Below are positions 7,330-61,831 of a DNA stretch of 62,183 nucleotides, one piece after another (the first letter of the stretch is position 1; every line of letters begins with the position of its first letter). The stretch spans positions 1 through 62,183 of the forward strand of contig JAUYEG010000139.1 of the NCBI GenBank assembly GCA_030691505.1, given 5' to 3'. The DNA comes from Bacillota bacterium. Lineage in GTDB: Bacteria; Bacillota; Sulfobacillia; JAUYEG01. Both the position numbers and the translations under genes were made by a program. Below the pieces are notes generated by a model, which was not told the origin of the DNA, ran no database searches, and worked only from the letters and a program-made list of their open reading frames with translations.

Positions 7330-8023
7330 AAAGCAGGCCGGCCGCAACCGCGACGGCCAGCCCCGGGAGCATGTTGGCGACGCGGATCTTGGCCACCTGG
7401 AGGATGTTGAGCCCGATAGCCACGATCATCAGGCCCCCGGCTGCGGTCAGGAGGGTGACGACCGGGTCGGTCAGAAACTGCCTGGCCACCCCCGCCGCCA
7501 GCGTAAGCCCGCCCTGGTAGACCAGGATCGTTGCCGCCGAAAAGAGCACCCCCGGGCCGAGGGCGGCGGTCAGGGCGATTGCCGAAATGCCGTCGAGCGT
7601 TGACTTGGTCAGCAGCAGAGTCGGGTCACCGCGCAGCCCGTCCTGAAGCGCTCCGAGCACGGTCATGGGCCCGACGCAAAAGAGCAGGCTGGCCGTCACG
7701 AACCCCCGCGTGAAGTCGCCCCGGCTTCCGGACCCAAACCGCCGCTTGAGCGACTCGCCGAGCGAGTTGAGCCGGTCGTCCAGGCGCAGGGCCTCCCCGA
7801 TCCAGGCGCCGGTCACCAGGCAGATCAGCACGGCGATGAAGCGGGCGCCGGTATTGGCCTCCCATGCCATCTGGAGCCCGACAAGCATGGTGGCGACCCC
7901 CACGCAGTGCATGGTGGTTTCGACCATGCGCTCCGGCAGGCGGTTTCCGACGAGCAGGCCGGCGAAGCCCCCGGCGAGGACCGTGGCCAGGTTGGCGAGC
8001 GTGCCGATGCCGGTCATGGGCAC
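7313..8023 (-). CDS. DUF554 family integral membrane protein
   Basis: A 236-residue, strongly hydrophobic protein with about seven predicted membrane segments. It has the features of DUF554 (YdfK/YqgA-like): Gly-rich membrane turns such as GTLANLATVLAGGFAGLLVGNRLPER near the N-terminus and FCVGPMTVLGALQDGLRGD in the middle. The function of the family is not established; transport or sensing has been suggested. The GTG start at 8023 is favoured because AGGAG lies 10 nt upstream; an in-frame ATG follows six bases later. Its stop lies inside the end of the convergent creatininase gene. Confidence 0.85.
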   Translation of the reverse strand: MPMTGIGTLANLATVLAGGFAGLLVGNRLPERMVETTMHCVGVATMLVGLQMAWEANTGARFIAVLICLVTGAWIGEALRLDDRLNSLGESLKRRFGSGSRGDFTRGFVTASLLFCVGPMTVLGALQDGLRGDPTLLLTKSTLDGISAIALTAALGPGVLFSAATILVYQGGLTLAAGVARQFLTDPVVTLLTAAGGLMIVAIGLNILQVAKIRVANMLPGLAVAVAAGLLFSGLL

Positions 8024-8165
8024 GTGAGAAGATCTCCTTTCGTCCGCGGAGACGCCTCTGTAACGCCTCCCGATCGCGACTGGAAAGTGCTTCGCGCTGG
8101 CCGCGGCTTCGCCTGCTGTGGTCCCGCGGACGTGGAGGTCCGCCGCTTGTGTTAAAGTAGCGGCA

Positions 8166-8201
8166 TAGGAAATCCTAATGCTGCGCCCCCACGGAGGCGC
8201 A
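8166..8201. promoter_or_regulatory. Two short inverted repeats in the DUF554/copper-chaperone divergent region
   Basis: TAGGA-AA-TCCTA at 8166-8177 is followed by TGCGCC-N8-GGCGCA at 8182-8201, just ahead of the copper chaperone. Either could be an operator or a leader hairpin. No convincing -35/-10 pair was found, and the sites do not match the CopY operator core. Confidence 0.3.
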
Positions 8202-8254
8202 ACGCATCAACTCAAAAAACCAATCCTGCACGAGATGTGGAGAGGCGGATGATC

Positions 8255-8479
8255 ATGGCGGCTGCCACCGAAGTGACGCTCAACGTCCCGGGCATGTCCT
8301 GCATGCACTGCGAGAAAGCCATCAAGGCCGCCCTTGGCCAGCTTAACGGTGTCGCGGACGTCAGGGTCGACCTGGGCGCCAAGAAGGTCAAGGTGACCTA
8401 CTCCAGTGAAACGGTCAGCCCGGACGTGCTGGCCAAGGCTCTCGAAGCGGCGGGATATCCCGTCGCGGGACAGCGCTGA
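8255..8479 (+). CDS. copZ: CopZ-like heavy-metal-associated (HMA) chaperone
   Basis: A small cytosolic protein of 74 residues made of a single HMA domain. The metal loop is GMSCMHCE with cysteines at 16 and 19, the Cu(I)-binding MxCxxC motif, and the remaining sequence follows the beta-alpha-beta-beta-alpha-beta pattern (VRVDLGAKKVKVTY near the middle). Its usual job is handing Cu(I) to a CopA-type ATPase or to a repressor; neither is in this window. The ATG at 8255 is preferred because GGAGAGG sits 9 nt upstream. ATG 8249 and GTG 8237 are possible earlier starts. A strong hairpin terminator follows. Confidence 0.88.
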   Translation: MAAATEVTLNVPGMSCMHCEKAIKAALGQLNGVADVRVDLGAKKVKVTYSSETVSPDVLAKALEAAGYPVAGQR

Positions 8480-8541
8480 CGCCGCGCGGGAGCGGCGCGC
8501 AGGGCCAATCAGGAGAAAGCGGACCAGGCAAAAGCAACATG

Positions 8542-8580
8542 ACGGACGGCGGGAAGCCACAGGCCCCCGCCGTCCGTTTC
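8542..8580 (+). terminator. Rho-independent terminator after the copper chaperone (possibly bidirectional)
   Basis: A perfect 12-bp stem, ACGGACGGCGGG paired with CCCGCCGTCCGT, has a 12-nt loop and is followed by TTTCTGTCT. Read on the opposite strand it is followed by GTTGCTTTTG, so it could also end transcription of the convergent CapA-like gene. Confidence 0.8.
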
Positions 8581-8629
8581 TGTCTCGTCCCCAGGTAAAG
8601 CGCACGAGACAGGAGTCGCGCAGGGTCCG

Positions 8630-9949
8630 CTAGAGCTTGACTATCCCTATTCCGTCCTCAAACCGGATCTCCGTCCCGAACGGCCTTGACAGCTCGGCAA
8701 CCTTGGTGATGATCTTCTCGGCCAGCTCGCCGCTTGCCAGCATCGGCCTGCCGCGCACCGTCCGCCGCTTGCCAAATCCGAGCGTGATCGGGTACAGCTT
8801 GCACTCGACGAGGTCGCCGCCCTCGTACCTGCACCAGGGCACGAAGCTCTCCCAGAACTTCGCGTCGGCCGGGAATCCCTTGCGGTCGTTGTCGCTGCGG
8901 CGGTCGTAGTAGTCCGCCGGGGTCGCGGCATCGTCGAGGCCGGTCTTCTCGTAGTTGTCGGCAGGCATCTTGCGCACGGTCTCATTCTGGAAAACGAAGT
9001 TGCCCAGGCTGTAGAAGATCGGACGCCGCTTGTAGATCTCGATGCCCCGGATGAAGTGGGGGCCGTGGCCGATGTAGGCATCCGTCCCGGCGTCAATGCA
9101 GGCCCTGGCGAACGGCTGGTGGAAGGTCGCCGGCTGCCAGCGGTCCATGCCGCCCTCATGGGCGTGCATGCTAAAGACCACGAAATCCGACTGCCGCCGC
9201 GCGTCGCTGATCCATTTGACGTTGCCCTCTAGGTCTGACTTGTCAACCTCGGTGCACATGCCCGGTTTGTCCCCTGCGACGAAGCGCACACCCGCGAAGT
9301 TAAGCTCGCCTTCCTTTTCGGGCTTGAGGTAGCCGGCCGCTATGTATTCCCGCTTAACGGCCTCCATGCCCATCCGCTCGCTGACCTGGCGTAGCTGGTC
9401 GAAACCTGCCTTGTCGACCACGTAGTAGGTGCTGTAGCGGACCGGGTTGAGACCGGGGCGCCCGAGCGAGTCACGGCGCTGCTCGCCGGCCCGCCCGAAC
9501 GAGGCAAACGACGAAGAGGCCGACAGGAACCCGACCCGGCCCTCATCGAGGTCCAGGTAGCGTGCGGACCTGGCTTCCGAGAGGTTTTCGCCCGTACCGG
9601 CGTGGCACAGCCCGGCCTCATCGAGCAACTCGATAGTCCGCACCATGCCGCCCAACGCGTAGTCGAGAGAGTGGTTGTTGGCCAGCGAGAACAGGTTGAA
9701 ACCGGCCCACAGCAGGTCGTCAACGATGTCGGGGTCGACCTGCGCGTAGGTCCCGCCGCTTTCCGCGACGGGATAGCCCTCGTACTCGTGGATGAGCATC
9801 TCGAAGTTGGTGAAGCGTATCGCCGCGCTGCGCACGATGTCCCAAAGCTCCAGGTATGCCTGCTCGGTGTACGGCGAGAGCCTGCGGGTGATAAACAGGT
9901 CCCCTGTGGCAGTCAGGGTGAAGTTGCGTCGCTCGTCGTGGTACTCCAA
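8630..9949 (-). CDS. CapA-family poly-gamma-glutamate synthesis/metallophosphoesterase-like protein
   Basis: A protein of 439 residues with the CapA (PgsA) metallophosphatase-like fold. Ordered motifs are GDLFITRRL near the N-terminus, FTNFEMLI, SLANNHSLDY, MHAHEG, GHGPHFIRGIE and FYSLGNFVFQ. In Bacillus CapA/PgsA is needed for poly-gamma-glutamate assembly or export; stand-alone homologues are of unclear substrate. No N-terminal membrane anchor is visible, unlike classic PgsA. The TTG start has GAGGAGGG 6 nt upstream. It diverges from the flippase-like gene, whose downstream partner is a GCS2-type glutamyl ligase, so a joint gamma-glutamyl role is possible but unproven. Confidence 0.85.
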   Translation of the reverse strand: MEYHDERRNFTLTATGDLFITRRLSPYTEQAYLELWDIVRSAAIRFTNFEMLIHEYEGYPVAESGGTYAQVDPDIVDDLLWAGFNLFSLANNHSLDYALGGMVRTIELLDEAGLCHAGTGENLSEARSARYLDLDEGRVGFLSASSSFASFGRAGEQRRDSLGRPGLNPVRYSTYYVVDKAGFDQLRQVSERMGMEAVKREYIAAGYLKPEKEGELNFAGVRFVAGDKPGMCTEVDKSDLEGNVKWISDARRQSDFVVFSMHAHEGGMDRWQPATFHQPFARACIDAGTDAYIGHGPHFIRGIEIYKRRPIFYSLGNFVFQNETVRKMPADNYEKTGLDDAATPADYYDRRSDNDRKGFPADAKFWESFVPWCRYEGGDLVECKLYPITLGFGKRRTVRGRPMLASGELAEKIITKVAELSRPFGTEIRFEDGIGIVKL

Positions 9950-49399: not shown

Positions 49400-50269
49400 T
49401 TGGCTGTGGAGCCCGCCGTTGTTGTTCGCCAGAGGCTTGATGAGCTGTCCGAGTCAATCGTGTTCCAGGGTGACGCCCGCGTCGCTCTGCCGCTGCTTCC
49501 TGACAACTCTGTGCAGATTTGTTGCACTTCACCGCCCTATTGGTCGCTTCGCGACTATCAGACTCCTGGACAGATTGGTCTCGAGCCGACAATTGATCAG
49601 TTTCTCAACCGTCTGGTGGAGGTATTTGCTCAGGTCAAGCGGATCTTAAGGCCGGATGGAGTACTCTGGCTCAGTATCGGCGACGCCTACACAAGCGGAG
49701 ATCGTGGGTACCGTGCACCCGATAAAAAGAACCCTGTTCGTGCCATGTCTTATAGACCGGACACGCCAGACGGTCTCAAGCCCAAGGATCTAATCGGATT
49801 GCCTTGGCGTTTGGCGTTTGCCCTTCAGCGGGATGGGTGGTATCTGCGGTCTGACATTATTTGGCATAAGACGAACTGCATGCCAGAGAGCGTAAAGGAC
49901 CGGCCGACAAAGGCTCACGAATATGTGTTTCTCTTGTCGAAGTCAGAGCGGTACTACTATGACCATCGCTCGATGCGTGAGGCCAACGGCCGCAACAAGA
50001 GGACCGTGTGGAGCATCCCGACACAGCCCTTCAAGGGGGCGCACTTTGCGACCTTTCCGCCGGCGCTGATCGAGCCTCTGATACGTGCCACGTCAAGGCC
50101 GGGAGATTTCGTGCTCGACCCCTTTTTGGGATCCGGGACCACCGCCCTCGTGGCCGCTCAGATGGACCGGAAGTATGTAGGCGTTGAAGTCAACCGGGAC
50201 TACGTCAACCTGTCGATCCAACGACTCCGTAATGTCTTTGAGGATACTCGTCTCGCATTGGCTGAGTGA
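49400..50269 (+). CDS. N4-cytosine (or N6-adenine) DNA methyltransferase, beta class
   Basis: A 289-residue restriction-modification-type methyltransferase. The catalytic motif IV is TSPPYW (S44-P-P-Y47) and the SAM-binding motif I is FVLDPFLGSGTTALV near the C-terminus, the beta-class order. An SPPY motif indicates N4-cytosine modification. TTG 49400 follows AGGAGG at a short spacing and GTG 49406 at 10 nt is equally plausible. Codon use here is visibly less GC-rich than in neighbouring genes, suggesting transfer. It is followed by a truncated gene resembling a CCCGGG-cutting nuclease. Confidence 0.9.
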   Translation: MAVEPAVVVRQRLDELSESIVFQGDARVALPLLPDNSVQICCTSPPYWSLRDYQTPGQIGLEPTIDQFLNRLVEVFAQVKRILRPDGVLWLSIGDAYTSGDRGYRAPDKKNPVRAMSYRPDTPDGLKPKDLIGLPWRLAFALQRDGWYLRSDIIWHKTNCMPESVKDRPTKAHEYVFLLSKSERYYYDHRSMREANGRNKRTVWSIPTQPFKGAHFATFPPALIEPLIRATSRPGDFVLDPFLGSGTTALVAAQMDRKYVGVEVNRDYVNLSIQRLRNVFEDTRLALAE

Positions 50270-50284
50270 GGGTGGTGACCAAAA

Positions 50285-50809
50285 GTGCCGATTGAATACG
50301 CCATTCCCCCACCCGATGACCAACTGGCGTTTTTTGAGTTTCTGCTTGCGGCGAAAGGGCAACTACTCCAAGAGGCTCTTCTCAAGACGGTGAGCGGCTG
50401 CGATCTGGCCGCAATCGATGCCGATGCGCAGCGGTATGTGCCAGCTGATGCGCTGTGTGTACTTGCTGGGAGGGGTCTTCGGGCAGAATTGGTCTTCGCT
50501 CTGCCCACGATTCTACGTGCAAATCCGCGCCTGCTTGGATACTATCGGTTGCTCCTCGGTTTCTCACAGAAGAGCTTCTATACGAAGGCCTTTGGCCTGT
50601 CCGGCAGGATACACACTGCCATGGAGCAGGAAGGCACTCTCGTACCTGGCATGGTGGATCGCTTACCCTCTTTGTGCCTCGCTTTGAACGAGAGCGCCGC
50701 ACATCTAGTGAGAGGGATCGGTCTTGACAGGCTAACGCGCGACAACCTGAGGGACTTGTCGTTGCTCACGTTTGGCCCGCAGCTTCGTTCTGGCACAGCG
50801 ACTCTCTGA
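50285..50809 (+). pseudogene. Truncated restriction endonuclease-like gene (XcyI/Cfr9I type?)
   Basis: A 174-residue frame starting at GTG with AGGGTGG 9 nt upstream. It reads AFFEFLLAAKGQLLQEALLKTVSG, VPADALCVLAGRGLRAELVF and LLGYYRLLLGFSQKSFY. From memory these match the N-terminal half of XcyI-family type II enzymes (CCCGGG), which are about 330 residues and pair with N4-cytosine methyltransferases. The frame stops after LTFGPQLRSG, where relatives continue into their catalytic half. The two other frames downstream do not restore a recognisable remainder. It is therefore probably a truncated, inactive nuclease, although a short functional protein is not excluded. Confidence 0.6.
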
Positions 50810-54558: not shown

Positions 54559-54587
54559 TTGACGCACCCCGGTTTCCGCGATAACGT
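54559..54587 (+). promoter_or_regulatory. Predicted sigma-A promoter of the T-box/Liv operon
   Basis: TTGACG and TAACGT are separated by exactly 17 bp, the best promoter match seen in the window. The expected start site is about 54594-54600, about 45 bp before the T-box stem I. Confidence 0.7.
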
Positions 54588-54640
54588 GATGCCCAACAAC
54601 ATCGGCCTTGTTGCCGGCCAGGCAGCGGGGCCGCAAAACC

Positions 54641-54912
54641 CGATGAGCGGGAAGAGTAGGCGAGACCGGACGGTTCAGTGAGCCGGGGACAGTGTGAACC
54701 CGGTGCGGCAACGGAACGCCGAATGGACCCACGAGGGGCAGATCGAAACGGCTAGGCCGGAGTAGTGGCTGACGGGAGCCCGCCGTTACAGGGGCAAGGT
54801 ATCGCGGGTGCCGGATTCCGGTGCCGCCGTACCTGCAGAGCGAGAGGTTTCATCTCAAAAAGGGATGGCACCACGGGCATTGACCCGTTCCCCCCTGGGA
54901 ACGGGTTTTTCT
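54641..54912 (+). promoter_or_regulatory. T-box riboswitch leader with apparent tryptophan specifier
   Basis: The leader has the T-box parts in order. Stem I begins with GGGAAGAGTAGGCG, then the AG-bulge/terminal-loop segment CAGTGAGCCGGGGACAGTGTGAACCCGG split around its loop, and a specifier loop GAATGGACCCACGAGG in which TGG (54724-54726) is followed by the usual purine. After stem III comes the T-box sequence AGGGATGGCACCACGGG. Its bulge TGGC (54866-54869) would pair with an acceptor end GCCA, meaning discriminator base G, as in bacterial tRNA-Trp. A strong terminator overlaps the T-box. Uncharged tRNA-Trp should therefore switch the operon on. One extra base in the T-box (GGGATGG rather than GGGTGG) is unusual. 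Confidence 0.85.
54883..54910 (+). terminator. Conditional terminator of the T-box
   Basis: ACCCGTTCCC pairs perfectly with GGGAACGGGT through a 4-nt loop and is followed by TTTT. The left arm can instead pair with the CACGGG of the T-box to make the antiterminator. Confidence 0.88.
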
Positions 54913-54984
54913 GTTTCCGGGGACCTCGCTCGGGGCCACGGCCGCCGCCCCGGCGCCACTAGAACAGAAGGAGGTCCTCTGAAG

Positions 54985-56181
54985 ATGGGCAGTCGCAGCG
55001 GCAAGAGGTTGGAAAGGTCCGTTTTGAGGAGGCTGGGGCTGGCGGCCCTGGTCGTGACCATCGGGGCGGGGCTGGCACTCACGAGCGGCTGCAAGCCGGG
55101 AGTGTTGAAGATCGGAGCCGCCGGACCTTACAGCGGTGAGCTGAGCAAGATCGGGCTCGATTCCTACAATGCCATCAAGCTGGCCATTGACGAGATCAAC
55201 GAGGCCGGCGGGATCGGCGGGCGCAAGGTTGAACTGGTCATGGGAGACGACGAGGCCCAGTCGAGCAAGGCACAGACGGTTGCCGAGAAGTTCGTCGCCG
55301 ACAAGGCGATGATGGGCGTGGTCGGGCCGATGAATTCCAACTGCGTTATCTCGGCACTTCCGGTCTACGAACGCGGTGGGCTGGTGATGATCACCCAGTC
55401 CGGCACAAACCCCGAGATCACCGAGTCCGGCTATAAGGTCGCTTTTCGGCTCTGCCCACGGGATGAAGGGCAAGGCGGGGCAGCCGGCGATTTCATCGTC
55501 AATGAACTTGGCAAGACCCGGGTGTACCTGATCGACGACAAGGGCACCTACGGGCAGGGACTTGCCGACCAGGTCGAGGCCAAGATCAGGTCTTTGGGCG
55601 TCGAACCTGTCGGGCGCGGGCAGGTGGCCGCGGATGACCGCGACTTCGCCTCGCTGCTGACCCTAATTGAACAGAAAAACCCCGACCTGATCTACCTCGC
55701 GCTCCCCAACCCGTCGCAGGCCGCGGCACTGATCAAGCAAGCCCGGGCGATGAACATGGCCGCTGTCTTCATGGGCGGCGACGGGCTGAAAGAGAAAGAC
55801 CAGCTTATCGCCGCGACCGCCGGGGCTGCTGAGGGTATGTACGTCACCGCGATCGGCAAGGAAATCACCGAGGTGCCCGAGGCCGCGAGCTTTATCGAGA
55901 AGTTCGAGGCCCGCCACGGCTCAATGAGCATCTTCTCCGGCCAGTCCTACGAGGCGGCAAAGATCCTGTTGGAGGCGATGAAGCGCGCTTCCGCCGCCGG
56001 GAAGATGACCCGGGCGGAAGTCCTCAACCAGATGCGGACCATCAAGTACCGGGGGATCCTCGGGTTCGAGGTCGGCTTCGACGGCCAGGGCGACGTGGCC
56101 GGCGCGATGATCTACGTGCTTAAGGTCGAGGGGCCGGACTTCGTGCCGGTCAAGGACTACCCGGCGGAGAAGCCTGAGTAG
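54985..56181 (+). CDS. livK: Liv-type (LivK/HAAT) amino-acid-binding lipoprotein
   Basis: A 398-residue substrate-binding lipoprotein. The signal peptide ends in the lipobox LTSGC, so the mature protein is lipid-anchored outside the membrane. The family fold is shown by IGAAGPYSGELSKIG, the AINEAGGIGGRKVELV-like segment (DEINEAGGIGG), and VVGPMNSNCVISALPVYERGG. By family it binds branched-chain amino acids, amides or aromatic acids. The T-box upstream points to tryptophan as the regulated nutrient. AAGGAGGT lies 9 nt before the ATG. First gene of a three-gene transporter operon. Confidence 0.93.
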   Translation: MGSRSGKRLERSVLRRLGLAALVVTIGAGLALTSGCKPGVLKIGAAGPYSGELSKIGLDSYNAIKLAIDEINEAGGIGGRKVELVMGDDEAQSSKAQTVAEKFVADKAMMGVVGPMNSNCVISALPVYERGGLVMITQSGTNPEITESGYKVAFRLCPRDEGQGGAAGDFIVNELGKTRVYLIDDKGTYGQGLADQVEAKIRSLGVEPVGRGQVAADDRDFASLLTLIEQKNPDLIYLALPNPSQAAALIKQARAMNMAAVFMGGDGLKEKDQLIAATAGAAEGMYVTAIGKEITEVPEAASFIEKFEARHGSMSIFSGQSYEAAKILLEAMKRASAAGKMTRAEVLNQMRTIKYRGILGFEVGFDGQGDVAGAMIYVLKVEGPDFVPVKDYPAEKPE

Positions 56182-56216
56182 GGCGAAACACCGGCGGTAA
56201 CCGGAAAGGGACAGGG

Positions 56217-57122
56217 GTGGATAGAGTGCTGGCGCAGCAGATAGTCAACGGGCTGACCCTTGGCTGTCTATACGCCCTGATGGCGCTGGGCTACTCGATG
56301 GTCTACGGCATGCTCCAGCTGCTCAACTTCGCCCACGGTGACGTGATGATGATCGGGGCCTTCGCGGGGTGGACGGCGATTGCCGCCCTCCCCGCGGGGC
56401 TGCCGGCCTGGACGCGGCTGCTATCCGCACTGGTGGCCGCAAGCGCTGCCTCCGTTGCGGTGGGGTTGGCCGTCGAACGTTACGCCTACCGTCCCCTGCG
56501 CGGCTCCGGCCGACTGGCGCCCCTGATCAGCGTATTGGGCGCCTCGATCGTGATCCGCAGCGGGATGGCCCTCATCACCGGGGGCCGTTCCAAGGCCGTC
56601 CCGACGCCGGCGCTACTGGGGAGCGGCCAACTGGCGGTTGCGGGCATACGCGTCGATGCCGTCCGGATGCTGGTCGTCGGGGTGACGGTCGCGTTGCTGC
56701 TGGCCCTCGACTTCATGTCCCGCCGCACGAGCCTGGGTCGCCGGATCCGTGCGGTGGCTGAGGACCAGGAGGCCGCCGCCGCAACAGGGGTCCCCGTGGA
56801 CCGGGTGATCACCGTGACCTTCGCGCTTGGGTCGTGCCTTGCCGGGGTGGCAGGAATCCTTGCGGGCCTGTACTTCACGCAGATCGATTTCTACATGGGA
56901 TTCGGGATGGGGCTCAAGGCCTTTGTGGCGGCGGTCCTGGGGGGCATCGGCCACATGCGGGGCGCGGCCCTGGGAGGCCTTGCTTTGGGGCTCGCCGAGT
57001 GCCTCGGCGTGGCGCTGGTCGGGCCGGTGTATAAGGACCTCATCGCCTTCGTGGTCCTGATAGTGGTACTGCTGCTTCGGCCGCGGGGCCTTGTCGCCGG
57101 GCCCTCGGGGAGGTCCGCCTGA
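56217..57122 (+). CDS. livH: LivH-type ABC transporter permease
   Basis: A 301-residue permease with about eight TM helices and the LivH signatures NGLTLGCLYALMALGYSMVYGMLQLLNFAHGDVMMIGAF at the N-terminus (positions 9-47) and GGIGHMRGAALGG near the C-terminus. GTG 56217 follows GGAAAGGGAC; GTG 56226 with AGGGGTGG is an alternative. It pairs with the LivM part of the next gene to form the membrane channel. Confidence 0.94.
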   Translation: MDRVLAQQIVNGLTLGCLYALMALGYSMVYGMLQLLNFAHGDVMMIGAFAGWTAIAALPAGLPAWTRLLSALVAASAASVAVGLAVERYAYRPLRGSGRLAPLISVLGASIVIRSGMALITGGRSKAVPTPALLGSGQLAVAGIRVDAVRMLVVGVTVALLLALDFMSRRTSLGRRIRAVAEDQEAAAATGVPVDRVITVTFALGSCLAGVAGILAGLYFTQIDFYMGFGMGLKAFVAAVLGGIGHMRGAALGGLALGLAECLGVALVGPVYKDLIAFVVLIVVLLLRPRGLVAGPSGRSA

Positions 57123-57123
57123 G

Positions 57124-59823
57124 TTGAAACGCCGCTACTGGGCAATCGCCCTGGTCCTCGGGCTCGCCCCCCTGCTTGCAGGCAACGCCTATCTGCTTCG
57201 GGTGGCGGGCATGGCCCTGTGGCTCTTCGCCCTGGCCCTCGCCCTGGACGTGGTCGCGGGGCTCGCGGGGCTGCTGGACCTGGGGTTCACAGCGTTTATC
57301 GCGGTCGGGGCCTACGTCTACGCGTTCCTGGCCTCGGGGCACTTCGGGCTGCACCTGGCGTTCCCCGCCGCGCTCGCGGCCGGGGCGGCGGCCGGGGCGG
57401 TCACGGGGCTGGCAGTCGGCCTACCCAGCCTGAGGCTCCGCGACGATTACCTTGCGATCGTGACCCTGGCTCTGGGGCAGATCACCCGCATCCTGCTGGT
57501 CAACCTCGACCGCCCGGTGAACATCACCAACGGCCCTAACGGGATCATCCGCCTCGACCCGGCGAGGATCGGGGGGCTTGCGGCGGTTTCCCCGGCGGCC
57601 CTATACTGCCTGATGCTCGGCGGGGCGATCGCCGCCCTGGCCGTTGTGCGGGCCGTGGACGGCTCGCGCCTGGGTCGGGCCCTGCGGGCGGTCCGCGATC
57701 GGCAGGTGGTCGCCGAAGCCTTGGGCTTCCCGGCGCAGAAACTAAAGCTGATCGCCTTCATCATCGGGTCGTCCCTGATGGCCGGAGCAGGGGTGCTCTT
57801 CGCTGCCTGGCAGGGCTCGGTGTTCCCGGAGAACTTCGACATGTCCCTCCTGATTGCGGTCTACTGCGTCTTTGTGCTCGGAGGGAGCAGGCAGCCGGCC
57901 GCGATGCTGCTCGCCGCCGTGGGGCTCGTGCTGGTTCCTGAGGTCCTCAGGGGATCGGCCCTGTACCGGATGGTCCTGTACGGGCTAGCGCTTGCGGCGG
58001 CCGTGCTGTGGCGCGAGGGGGCCGGTGGGAGAAGGCGGGCTAAGCGCTGGGCAGCGATAATGCGGACCGCGGAGCGGACTACAGCCGCTGTGGCCGAAAC
58101 CGGCTCCGCAACTCCAGGGTTTCCGCACGGACGGCTGCCCTGGCTGCGGCCTACGCCACCCGCAGGGGCGACGGGTGCAGGGGCGACGGGTAGGGCGCTG
58201 CGCGTCGAGGATCTGACCGTGCGGCATGGCGGGATGGCAGCCGTCGACCAGGTTGCCCTTTCAGTCCGTCCCGGCGAAGTCGTCGGCCTGATCGGCCCCA
58301 ACGGCGCCGGCAAGACGACGCTGTTCAACGCGGTGTCCGGGGTCGTGCGGCCCGCTTCGGGAAAGGTCTTTCTGGTTGGGGCCGGTGGGGAGTCCGTTGA
58401 GTTGTCCCGCCTGCCGGCACACCGGCGGAGCGGGGCCGGAATCGCGCGTACCTTTCAGGGCGGAGGCCTGTTTGAGACGATGACCCTGGCAGAAAACGTT
58501 TCCTGCGCCGTGCAGGGGGCGGGCTTGACGTGGGCCGGTCGCGCGGCCGACGACACCCGGGCCGGGGAGCGGTTTCTCGCCGCGGGGGCGCCGGATCTCG
58601 CGGCCGATGCCCGGTCACTGCCCGGGGCTCTGACCTACGGGGCCAGACGGGTAGCCGAACTGGTTCGCGCCATGGCGAGCGAGCCCGGAGTGGTCCTCCT
58701 GGACGAGCCGATGGCCGGTCTTAGCCTTGAGCAGGTCAGGGCTGTCGAGGACCTCGTCCGCCAGATGCGTGCGCAGGGCAAGGCGGTGCTCCTGGTTGAG
58801 CACCGGATGGAAACGGTTTTCGGTCTCTGCGACCGCGTGCTTGTCCTGGACCGCGGGCGCCTGGTCGCGGCCGGGACGCCGTCCGAGGTGGCTGCCGACC
58901 CCCTGGTCCGGGAGGTGTACTTAGGGAAGGGCAACGACGGGAGAGACGCCGGCGGCGGGACGGGGGCGGCGGCTCCTTGTGCCGCCGGTGATCAAGCGCC
59001 CGGCGGCAGCACGGCCCGGTCCGCCGGAGTCGCAGCCGCGGACGGGACGGCGGACCGCCTGCCCGAGACTCCGCCCGAACGCCTGCTGGAAATAGAGCGG
59101 TTGACCGCGGGCTATGGCGACAGCAGGGTCCTGCACGACGTTGACGTGCACCTCCTGGCGGGAGAGGTCGTTTGCGTGCTGGGGCCCAACGCGGCAGGAA
59201 AGAGTACGCTGCTCCGGACGATCACAGGGACCGCCCGGGTGGTCTCCGGGCGGATAGTGCTGGACGGAGCCGACCTTGCTGGAGTGCCCGTCGAGGGCCG
59301 GATCGCCCTGGGCTTGGCCATTGTGCCGGAGGGCAGGAGGCTGTTCCCCGGACTCACCGTCCGGGAGCACCTCCTGCTGGGGGCCGAGGCGTCTTTGGGC
59401 CGCCGGTCGGCGGCCGGCCAACGCGAGGAGATTGCGCGCCGGGTCAGAGCGGTGATTGATCTCTTTCCACACCTCGGGCCGAGGCTCGAGCAGCCGGCGA
59501 GCACACTCAGCGGCGGGGAGCAGCAGATGGTCGCCCTGGGGCGCGCCTTGGCGTCGCGCCCCAAGCTCCTGCTGCTCGACGAGCCCTGCATGGGGCTGGC
59601 CCCCGCGCTGGCAGAACGCCTCCTTGAAGCGGTTAGGGACCTTGCCCGGGCTGACGGGCCCCTCGGCGGGTGCGGGGTTCTTCTTGTCGATCAAAACGCC
59701 GCACTGGCTCTGAGCATCTCGGACCGGGCGTACGCCATGCGCGACGGGCGGATTATCCTCGAAGGCCGGGCCGCGGAGCTGCGCGGCGCGGACGATCTTC
59801 GCAGAGCCTATCTCTCGGCCTGA
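57124..59823 (+). CDS. LivM-LivG-LivF three-domain fusion: permease plus two ABC ATPases
   Basis: One continuous 899-residue frame joins three normally separate subunits. Residues 1-305 are a LivM permease (NITNGPNGI, RLGRALRAVRDRQVVAEALG, DMSLLIAVYCVFVLGG). About 359-600 is a LivG-like ATPase with Walker A GPNGAGKTT, FQGGGLFETMT and Walker B VVLLDEP, but a weakened signature LTYGARR. After an Ala/Gly linker, about 652-899 is a LivF-like ATPase with Walker A GPNAAGKST, canonical LSGGEQQM and LLLLDEP. No stop or frameshift lies between domains and no internal start with a strong ribosome site was noticed. TTG 57124 is one base past the livH stop with GGGAGG just upstream. The fusion fixes LivM:LivG:LivF at 1:1:1 on one chain. 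Confidence 0.9.
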   Translation: MKRRYWAIALVLGLAPLLAGNAYLLRVAGMALWLFALALALDVVAGLAGLLDLGFTAFIAVGAYVYAFLASGHFGLHLAFPAALAAGAAAGAVTGLAVGLPSLRLRDDYLAIVTLALGQITRILLVNLDRPVNITNGPNGIIRLDPARIGGLAAVSPAALYCLMLGGAIAALAVVRAVDGSRLGRALRAVRDRQVVAEALGFPAQKLKLIAFIIGSSLMAGAGVLFAAWQGSVFPENFDMSLLIAVYCVFVLGGSRQPAAMLLAAVGLVLVPEVLRGSALYRMVLYGLALAAAVLWREGAGGRRRAKRWAAIMRTAERTTAAVAETGSATPGFPHGRLPWLRPTPPAGATGAGATGRALRVEDLTVRHGGMAAVDQVALSVRPGEVVGLIGPNGAGKTTLFNAVSGVVRPASGKVFLVGAGGESVELSRLPAHRRSGAGIARTFQGGGLFETMTLAENVSCAVQGAGLTWAGRAADDTRAGERFLAAGAPDLAADARSLPGALTYGARRVAELVRAMASEPGVVLLDEPMAGLSLEQVRAVEDLVRQMRAQGKAVLLVEHRMETVFGLCDRVLVLDRGRLVAAGTPSEVAADPLVREVYLGKGNDGRDAGGGTGAAAPCAAGDQAPGGSTARSAGVAAADGTADRLPETPPERLLEIERLTAGYGDSRVLHDVDVHLLAGEVVCVLGPNAAGKSTLLRTITGTARVVSGRIVLDGADLAGVPVEGRIALGLAIVPEGRRLFPGLTVREHLLLGAEASLGRRSAAGQREEIARRVRAVIDLFPHLGPRLEQPASTLSGGEQQMVALGRALASRPKLLLLDEPCMGLAPALAERLLEAVRDLARADGPLGGCGVLLVDQNAALALSISDRAYAMRDGRIILEGRAAELRGADDLRRAYLSA

Positions 59824-60075: not shown

Positions 60076-61527
60076 CTAAGATGAGGTTGGCGCGGCTGCG
60101 CGCGCAGCCGCGATCTGTGCCAGGATGGCCCGCCTGACGAACCCGGGCAGCTTCGGGCTCCGTTGCAGCACCCGTTCCAGCGTCTCGACCGCCTGGTCCT
60201 TGTGCCCTTGCGCCAGCAGACACCCTGCCAGGTCCAGCATGACGGTGTCTGACGCGGGGAAGCACTCGGCGGCCGTCCGGAGCACCGTTTCGGCATCACC
60301 GGGCCTGTCGGCGCGCATGCACTGCCTCGCCAGCCGCAGCAGCTCCAGCTCGCCCGTGTCGTACCGGCCGGTTTCCGACTCACGCCAGCCCCGGTACGTC
60401 AGCATGGCCCGATCGGCGCCATCCGTCTTGACCGTCCGGTACAGGAGCGGCGCCGCCGGCTGCTTGGGCAGATCGTAGGGCTGTTCGTAGAGGACCTTGA
60501 GCACGTTTGCCGCCATCTGCGTGAGAATGGTGCCGCCGGTGTTGTTTAGGAGGATCACGACGCGCTGTTCGCTCACCGCCCGGAAGATTGCCGCGCCAAA
60601 GCCGTTGATGCCCCCGCCGTGCGTCACGATCAGCATCCCATCCGGATCCGGCTCGACGCCAAGTGGGTCGACGCACCGCGCCAGGTTCTCCGGCCGCAGC
60701 CTGAACGCCAGCCATCCGTATGCGTAGTTGCTGTGCACAGGCGTCAGCATCCTCTGCCGGTTGCTCCGGGGAATCAGGATCTCTGTCCGCAGGGCCCTGT
60801 CCCATTTGTGCAGGTCCTCGACCGTCGAGTACATCGAGCCCGCCGCATACGGAATGGTCATGTCAATGAAACCGCAGTTCCGATAGCCCTCGAGGTCCTG
60901 CTCGTAGCCCTTTGCTCTCTTGGGCAGGATCGGCTCCGACCGGTCGTAGCCGGTATCCTTCATGCCGAGGGGGTCGAGTATCCTGGATCGCAGCACCGCC
61001 TCATAGTCCTTGCCGGTCACGGCCTCGATGACCGCCCCCAGGACGAAGTAGCCCGAGTTGGAGTACGAGAACTCGCTCCCGGGCTCGAATTCGAGGTCGC
61101 CGCTGCAGTGGTCTTTTACGAACTCCTCAACCTTGACCGGGTTCCGGGCCACCTTGCCCGCGAAGCCCGGCTGCGCTGTGTAGTTCGGCAGGCCGGATGT
61201 GTGCGTGAGCAGATTATGTAGGGTGAGACGCGAACCGGTATCCTCACGGTAGTAGGGGAGATACGTTGAAACCTTCCCGTCCAACGCCAGCCGGCCCTCC
61301 TCGGCCAGCTGTATGATGAGCATCGACGTGAACTGCTTGGTTATCGAGCCAAGGCAAAACTTGGTGTCGGTCGTGTTCGGGATCCGCCACTCCAAGTCGG
61401 CCCAGCCGAAGCCGTTGCTGTAGACGACCTCGCCCTTTTCGCCAACCAGCACGGCCCCGTTGAACCATCCGTACATGTGGTAGTGATGCATCAGCTCGTG
61501 TATGGCAGATGCTGTGTCGGCGGGCAT
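60076..61527 (-). CDS. Serine beta-lactamase-like (class C/DD-peptidase family) protein with C-terminal helical repeats
   Basis: A 483-residue protein of the beta-lactamase/AmpC/Lact-B superfamily: nucleophile S61-I-T-K64, Y155-S-N157 and the HGGG motif (THGGGINGFG). Penicillin-binding, esterase and D-peptidase activities all occur in this group, so true lactam hydrolysis is unproven. The last 90 residues are TPR-like (DAETVLRTAAECFP, DQAVETLERVLQRSP). No signal peptide is visible, which suggests a cytosolic esterase or peptidase. ATG 61527 is just behind GGAGG; a TTG one codon earlier is equally placed. Confidence 0.85.
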   Translation of the reverse strand: MPADTASAIHELMHHYHMYGWFNGAVLVGEKGEVVYSNGFGWADLEWRIPNTTDTKFCLGSITKQFTSMLIIQLAEEGRLALDGKVSTYLPYYREDTGSRLTLHNLLTHTSGLPNYTAQPGFAGKVARNPVKVEEFVKDHCSGDLEFEPGSEFSYSNSGYFVLGAVIEAVTGKDYEAVLRSRILDPLGMKDTGYDRSEPILPKRAKGYEQDLEGYRNCGFIDMTIPYAAGSMYSTVEDLHKWDRALRTEILIPRSNRQRMLTPVHSNYAYGWLAFRLRPENLARCVDPLGVEPDPDGMLIVTHGGGINGFGAAIFRAVSEQRVVILLNNTGGTILTQMAANVLKVLYEQPYDLPKQPAAPLLYRTVKTDGADRAMLTYRGWRESETGRYDTGELELLRLARQCMRADRPGDAETVLRTAAECFPASDTVMLDLAGCLLAQGHKDQAVETLERVLQRSPKLPGFVRRAILAQIAAARAAAPTSS

Positions 61528-61650
61528 CAAGGGGCAGCCTCCTCGGGTGACGGGCTCGTCCAGCCGTTTGGCCTGTTGTTTCTGTGGGACGGGATTGACA
61601 TCCTTCGGCGCGGGATGCCGTGGCCGTGTTGAGCCGTGGGACGGATGTTG

Positions 61651-61700
61651 GTTATACTTTTCGGCAGAGAAGTATAACTGAGGGGCTGGCGAACAGGCAA
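61651..61700 (-). promoter_or_regulatory. Promoter with overlapping operator palindrome for the beta-lactamase-like gene
   Basis: On the minus strand TTGCCT (61700-61695) and TATACT (61676-61671) are 18 bp apart. The -10 box lies inside a perfect 9-bp inverted repeat, GTTATACTT-N10-AAGTATAAC (61651-61678). A repressor bound there would block RNA polymerase. The remaining intergenic sequence up to 61831 holds only a short 14-bp palindrome (AGCCCGGCCGGGCT). Confidence 0.6.
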
Positions 61701-61831
61701 CAATCATCGACGCATCCAGCGGTGGTCAAGCGGTTGCCACGTGGACGCCCGGTCGGGCAAAGCAGCCCGGCCGGGCTCCCATCACATCATGCCATCGGGG
61801 TCTTGTGGGCGTGCTACGTGCGCCCGTCCCG

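Follow-up and report, generated by a model that had tools for sequence, protein, structure and literature searches.

The locus at 54559-59823 raises the question of what a transporter of the branched-chain amino acid (Liv/HAAT) type carries when the RNA leader of its operon appears to read tRNA-Trp. The window, meaning the whole stretch of DNA that was analysed, is a 62,183-nucleotide contig of an uncultured Bacillota bacterium, referred to below as the window genome. Annotated from sequence, genomes with such an operon would be credited with branched-chain amino acid uptake and left as tryptophan auxotrophs with no visible importer, and the T-box resolves both. We consider it likely, reading the locus and its relatives together, that the operon encodes a tryptophan importer of the Liv/HAAT class that is induced by tryptophan starvation through a transcriptional T-box responding to tRNA-Trp.

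The gene composition is that of a complete Liv/HAAT system, with a Peripla_BP_6 binding protein, two BPD_transp_2 permeases, and the ATPases LivG and LivF. A livK-like gene for the substrate-binding protein occupies 54985-56181 on the forward strand (Peripla_BP_6, PF13458, E = 5e-58); as the sequence reads, its start is most likely the ATG at 54985, behind GGAGG. It is followed on the same strand by a livH-like permease gene (56217-57122; PF02653, LivH model E = 6e-66) and by a single open reading frame of 910 amino acids (57091-59823, forward strand), in which domain matches place LivM at about 57091-58059, LivG at about 58195-58929 and LivF at about 59080-59817. Long single LivMGF frames were also found in the orthologs L105, L107, L130 and L160. 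The NCBIfam matches of the operon proteins lie below the strict LivJ/K/H/M cut-offs.

Upstream of these genes, on the forward strand, the Rfam T-box covariance model RF00230 aligned end to end at 54634-54895 (219 of 219 model positions, 71.1 bits, E = 1.8e-15), identifying a T-box leader of the Trp type. The Rfam gathering score is 93, and the window contains no match at that threshold, so the E-value mode was used; all 17 T-boxes of the GC-rich window genome score below 93, and the livK leader is the highest of the 17. Within the alignment, the stem I 5' landmarks GATGA and AGTA fall at 54642-54658, and the specifier codon UGG at 54724-54726 lies in a specifier loop, GAA-UGG-A (54721-54727), that places the purine A directly after UGG. 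The core, AGGGATGGCACCACG, begins at 54861. The predicted antiterminator (54862-54892, -10.5 kcal/mol) consists of the helices GGGA/UCCC and ACGGG/CCCGU, which flank the acceptor-pairing bulge UGGC (54866-54869), a sequence complementary to the GCCA end of a tRNA-Trp with G73. An intrinsic terminator of 11 base pairs with a run of five T at its end follows at 54882-54907 (-19.3 kcal/mol). In the folds the two structures are mutually exclusive, sharing an arm at 54884-54892 that serves as the 5' arm of the terminator and the 3' arm of the antiterminator. The first-pass annotation had described a T-box leader ahead of livK with stem I landmarks, a TGG specifier followed by a purine and a TGGC acceptor bulge, and the Rfam check bore out each of these elements. 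Its further claim of a near-ideal promoter did not hold: a possible -35 element, TTGACG (54559-54564, forward strand), matches five of six consensus positions, but the best -10 element, GATAAC, is a poor match separated from it by a spacer of 15 nucleotides, and a consensus scan of the leader region for promoters found none.

Several lines of evidence indicate that the tRNA read by this leader is tRNA-Trp. The loop sequence GAAUGG also contains AUG in the adjacent (-1) frame, which would make the leader a Met T-box governing a methionine importer. The acceptor bulge speaks against that reading. The tRNA-Trp of the window genome has the anticodon CCA and ends in G-CCA (G73), pairing fully with UGGC, whereas the same genome's four tRNA genes with anticodon CAT finish in A-CCA, the A73 of tRNA-Met. 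The argument made at the outset, that the discriminator base G fits tRNA-Trp and not tRNA-Met, is thus confirmed by the genome's own tRNA genes. Two other T-boxes of the window genome serve as internal controls. The one preceding metG combines an AUG specifier with a UGGU bulge, unlike the UGGC bulge of the livK leader, and the one preceding trpB2 combines GAA-UGG-A with UGGC, the same arrangement as in the livK leader. Covariance alignment of the specifier, which the first-pass annotation had named as a test that could overturn its reading, puts UGG in register and places no non-Trp codon there.

The leaders of orthologous operons gave a second test of the register. LivK orthologs were gathered by whole-genome search and in named assemblies; the carriers are uncultured Bacillota/Clostridia metagenome-assembled genomes (MAGs), two Spirochaete loci and one locus, at 42% identity, labelled Actinomycetota. 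T-box cores were found at 32 of the 34 ortholog loci with readable upstream DNA (about 50-62% identity). The leader comparison comprised 34 leaders, including duplicate copies of the same genome, from 32 distinct genomes. The UGG specifier is present in every leader with a complete stem I (33 of 33, the window's own included). Of the 34 bulges, 33 read UGGC and the remaining one UGGU; wobble of the UGGU type is common for Trp T-boxes according to TBDB (PMC7778990). A strong hairpin with a U run lies downstream of nearly all of these leaders. The bases before UGG are GAA in one subclade and GAG in another, and representatives of both kinds are matched by RF00230. The -1 codon accordingly alternates between AUG and GUG, with GUG in about half of these leaders, while UGG and UGGC are kept. 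Specifier readings of Met, Val and Gly were dropped on the basis of bulge identity and this variation between subclades, and we regard a Met T-box as extremely improbable. The Rfam register, the contrast of G73 with A73, the metG and trpB2 controls and the invariance of UGG are the reasons for preferring Trp, and the Trp register of the livK T-box and the regulation that it implies are, at the level of sequence, well supported.

No plausible T-box was found upstream of 21 outgroup livK genes (identity no higher than 42%, mostly below 37%), and the two ortholog loci without one are the Spirochaete loci (L130 and L131, livK at about 8001-9146), which share about 50% identity and nearly the same binding pocket. 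Lateral transfer of livK into the Spirochaetes with loss of the leader is possible. In L130 the livK gene is preceded by a class V aminotransferase gene. For L110, a second livK copy of one MAG, the DNA examined showed no T-box core.

Under the mechanism that we propose, uncharged tRNA-Trp would build up and its CCA anticodon would pair with the UGG of stem I, while its GCCA end would pair with the UGGC bulge and stabilise the antiterminator. RNA polymerase would then read past the terminator, and LivK, LivH and the fused LivM-LivG-LivF would be made. We infer that the livK T-box controls termination in this way in the cell. The product would be a Liv/HAAT ABC importer whose binding protein has shifted from branched-chain amino acids to tryptophan, and the tryptophan brought in would supply a cell that has no pathway for its synthesis.

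The specificity of a T-box is not necessarily that of the transporter that it governs. T-boxed carriers of the LIVCS and NSS families can be broad, so that a T-box for a single amino acid may control a multi-specific carrier (PMC2494555). Liv systems can be broad as well, and at E ≤ 1e-20 the LivK family is represented in the window genome by the operon's livK only. These points favour an importer of hydrophobic amino acids under a true Trp T-box that takes mainly branched-chain and aromatic substrates, with tryptophan as one cargo only. The binding pocket bears directly on this alternative. Ligand contacts in LivJ include Y18, L77, C78, S79, T102, Y150, Y202 and F276, the hydrophobic ones including Y18, L77, C78, Y150, Y202 and F276, and the substitution Y202D abolishes isoleucine binding (PMC6983066); hydrogen bonds to the ligand are made by Y202, E226, S79 and T102 (PMC13103812).

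The pocket was compared by alignment to LivJ, LivK and Atu2422, at about 28-32% identity. The clade to which the window LivK belongs retains the positions that hold the alpha-amino acid (S79, T102, Y150 and, at 226, an acid). The residues at the positions for the alpha-amino and carboxylate groups, given as S121, T144, Y192 and D269, are invariant. The side-chain pocket for branched-chain amino acids has been replaced: W/Y18 is Ile, Y202 is lost and W278 is Gly, the last throughout the clade save in the 42% relative. Position 78 is Asn, or Thr in the two Spirochaetes, and position 99 is Gln, giving a clade signature of I18, PMNS, Q99, no Y202 and G278. A test for the branched-chain pocket (Y/W18, Y202, F/Y276, S79, T102, acid at 226) was negative for the window LivK, in which S79, T102, the acid at 226 and F276 are retained, position 18 is Ile and Y202 is absent. 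The loss of bulky aromatic residues may provide the room that a larger side chain needs. The fold itself is as expected: the AlphaFold model of LivK (pLDDT 87.8) agrees with the LivK class, and among the matches listed its nearest structures are LivK-class amino-acid-binding proteins, the first being 3ip5 (Atu2422 with alanine).

A pocket that differs from branched-chain binders at most side-chain positions and is almost invariant in the clade argues against the broad importer. So does a paralog in the relative G009, whose second Liv operon (L166:2900-7731, contig C4) is preceded by a T-box with a GUC (Val) specifier and a UGGU bulge and encodes a LivK that retains Y18, Y202 and F276. On balance a broad hydrophobic importer seems unlikely. 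The first-pass annotation had suggested that this Liv system imports tryptophan or a precursor rather than Leu, Ile or Val, and had named an aliphatic-specific LivK pocket as evidence that would count against it. As far as sequence comparison reaches, the suggestion is supported by missing trp genes and by a pocket that appears to have lost its branched-chain character while keeping the alpha-amino-acid contacts. Tryptophan uptake is the reading that we favour for these same reasons, and tryptophan would be the substrate of the importer.

The genes for tryptophan synthesis, judged from draft assemblies, show a pattern that agrees with uptake. All of trpE, trpC, trpF and trpA are absent from the window genome, which is 96% complete, and from the relative G009. 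Counting against the reading, the four genes are all present together with the T-box transporter in the relatives G024, G026 and G027. Among the 31 ortholog genomes, trpA scored above the family cut-off in five, including both T-box-less Spirochaetes, and was not found above it in the other 26, one of which has a weak partial match. Within the class, trpA was lacking in 4 of 8 ortholog carriers and in 38 of 146 other genomes, a difference that is not significant (p = 0.21), and the excess of genomes lacking trpA outside the class may reflect shared ancestry. The missing genes thus support tryptophan uptake without amounting to proof. The window genome also carries a stand-alone TrpB-like gene under a Trp T-box (L072:3128-4985, contig C41); it was identified as trpB2 (TIGR01415, 628 bits), and its product may serve in indole salvage.

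The presence of TrpB2 under a Trp T-box is also compatible with import of a tryptophan precursor, such as indole-3-acetate or indole, that would be converted by TrpB2 or by indolepyruvate ferredoxin oxidoreductase, an enzyme that the window genome encodes. Some proteins of the LivK fold bind aromatic acids, and at four related loci with the same T-box an aldehyde ferredoxin oxidoreductase gene lies ahead of livK. However, the contact positions for the alpha-amino and carboxylate groups are invariant, and no indolepyruvate oxidoreductase scored above the cut-off in G161, G164, G168 and G175, four genomes in which livK follows a Trp T-box and trpA was not detected. Because of these four carriers and the invariant contacts, precursor import is a minority reading, and we judge it very unlikely beside uptake of tryptophan itself.

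The four loci with the additional oxidoreductase deserve separate description. In L105 (4655-7879), and likewise in L106, L107 and L108, the Trp T-box heads an aldehyde ferredoxin oxidoreductase operon in which a gene for a small protein with a 4Fe-4S domain is followed by the oxidoreductase gene and livKHMGF. Here the importer could conceivably take an indolyl acid (e.g. indole-3-acetate) from which ferredoxin-dependent enzymes rebuild tryptophan, the aldehyde ferredoxin oxidoreductase being part of a starvation-induced salvage route, but the odds are strongly against it.

Trp-class T-boxes are common, and the livK leader has the features of the Trp class of RF00230, sharing its stem I landmarks, UGG specifier, UGGN bulge, alternative antiterminator and terminator, and transcriptional type of control. 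It differs from that class in being GC-rich and scoring below the Rfam gathering cut-off, and is otherwise ordinary. In Streptococcus suis, a tryptophan auxotroph, a Trp T-box lies on the ABC importer TrpXYZ, which is induced by tryptophan limitation (PMC9382623). The livK operon resembles that system in that a tryptophan auxotroph has an ABC importer controlled by a Trp T-box, but differs from it in having a LivK-class binding protein, two permeases and two ATPases, with three of the domains fused. The TrpX template 3lft was not among the sequence and fold relatives listed for the window LivK, in which LivK-class structures rank first. With LivKHMGF/LivJ (HAAT) and the GABA/alanine receptor Atu2422 the operon shares its subunits, fold and alpha-amino-acid contact positions; in contrast to LivKHMGF/LivJ, its side-chain pocket is replaced, its T-box is of the Trp rather than the Val, Leu or Ile type, and LivM, LivG and LivF are fused. 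Tryptophan carriers of the NSS family are also found with Trp T-boxes (PMC2494555), which predict tryptophan uptake as here, but these are secondary transporters and unrelated proteins. No report of a Trp T-box on a livK/HAAT importer was found in the literature searched, which took in neither the survey that Vitreschak and co-workers published in RNA in 2008 nor the TBDB and RegPrecise entries.

The LivK clade is, on the sequence features described above, a probable tryptophan importer in about 30 uncultured genomes, most of them Bacillota. The operon also offers a test case for the re-tuning of a Liv pocket from aliphatic to indole side chains, for which the LivK of the Val T-box operon in G009 is a natural matched control.

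Three further observations concern the window and its genome. A T-box on contig C167 (L084:1294-4039), whose specifier is probably UCC (Ser) and whose bulge is UGGC, precedes a methylthioribose-1-phosphate isomerase-like gene and then serS. Directly downstream of the livK operon, on the opposite strand, 60076-61707 of the window encodes a protein of the beta-lactamase (serine hydrolase) family that carries a TPR region at its C-terminus. At 49400-50809 an N4/N6 DNA methylase adjoins a match to XcyI-type restriction endonucleases, which does not extend beyond the first half of the model for that family and may be truncated or frameshifted.
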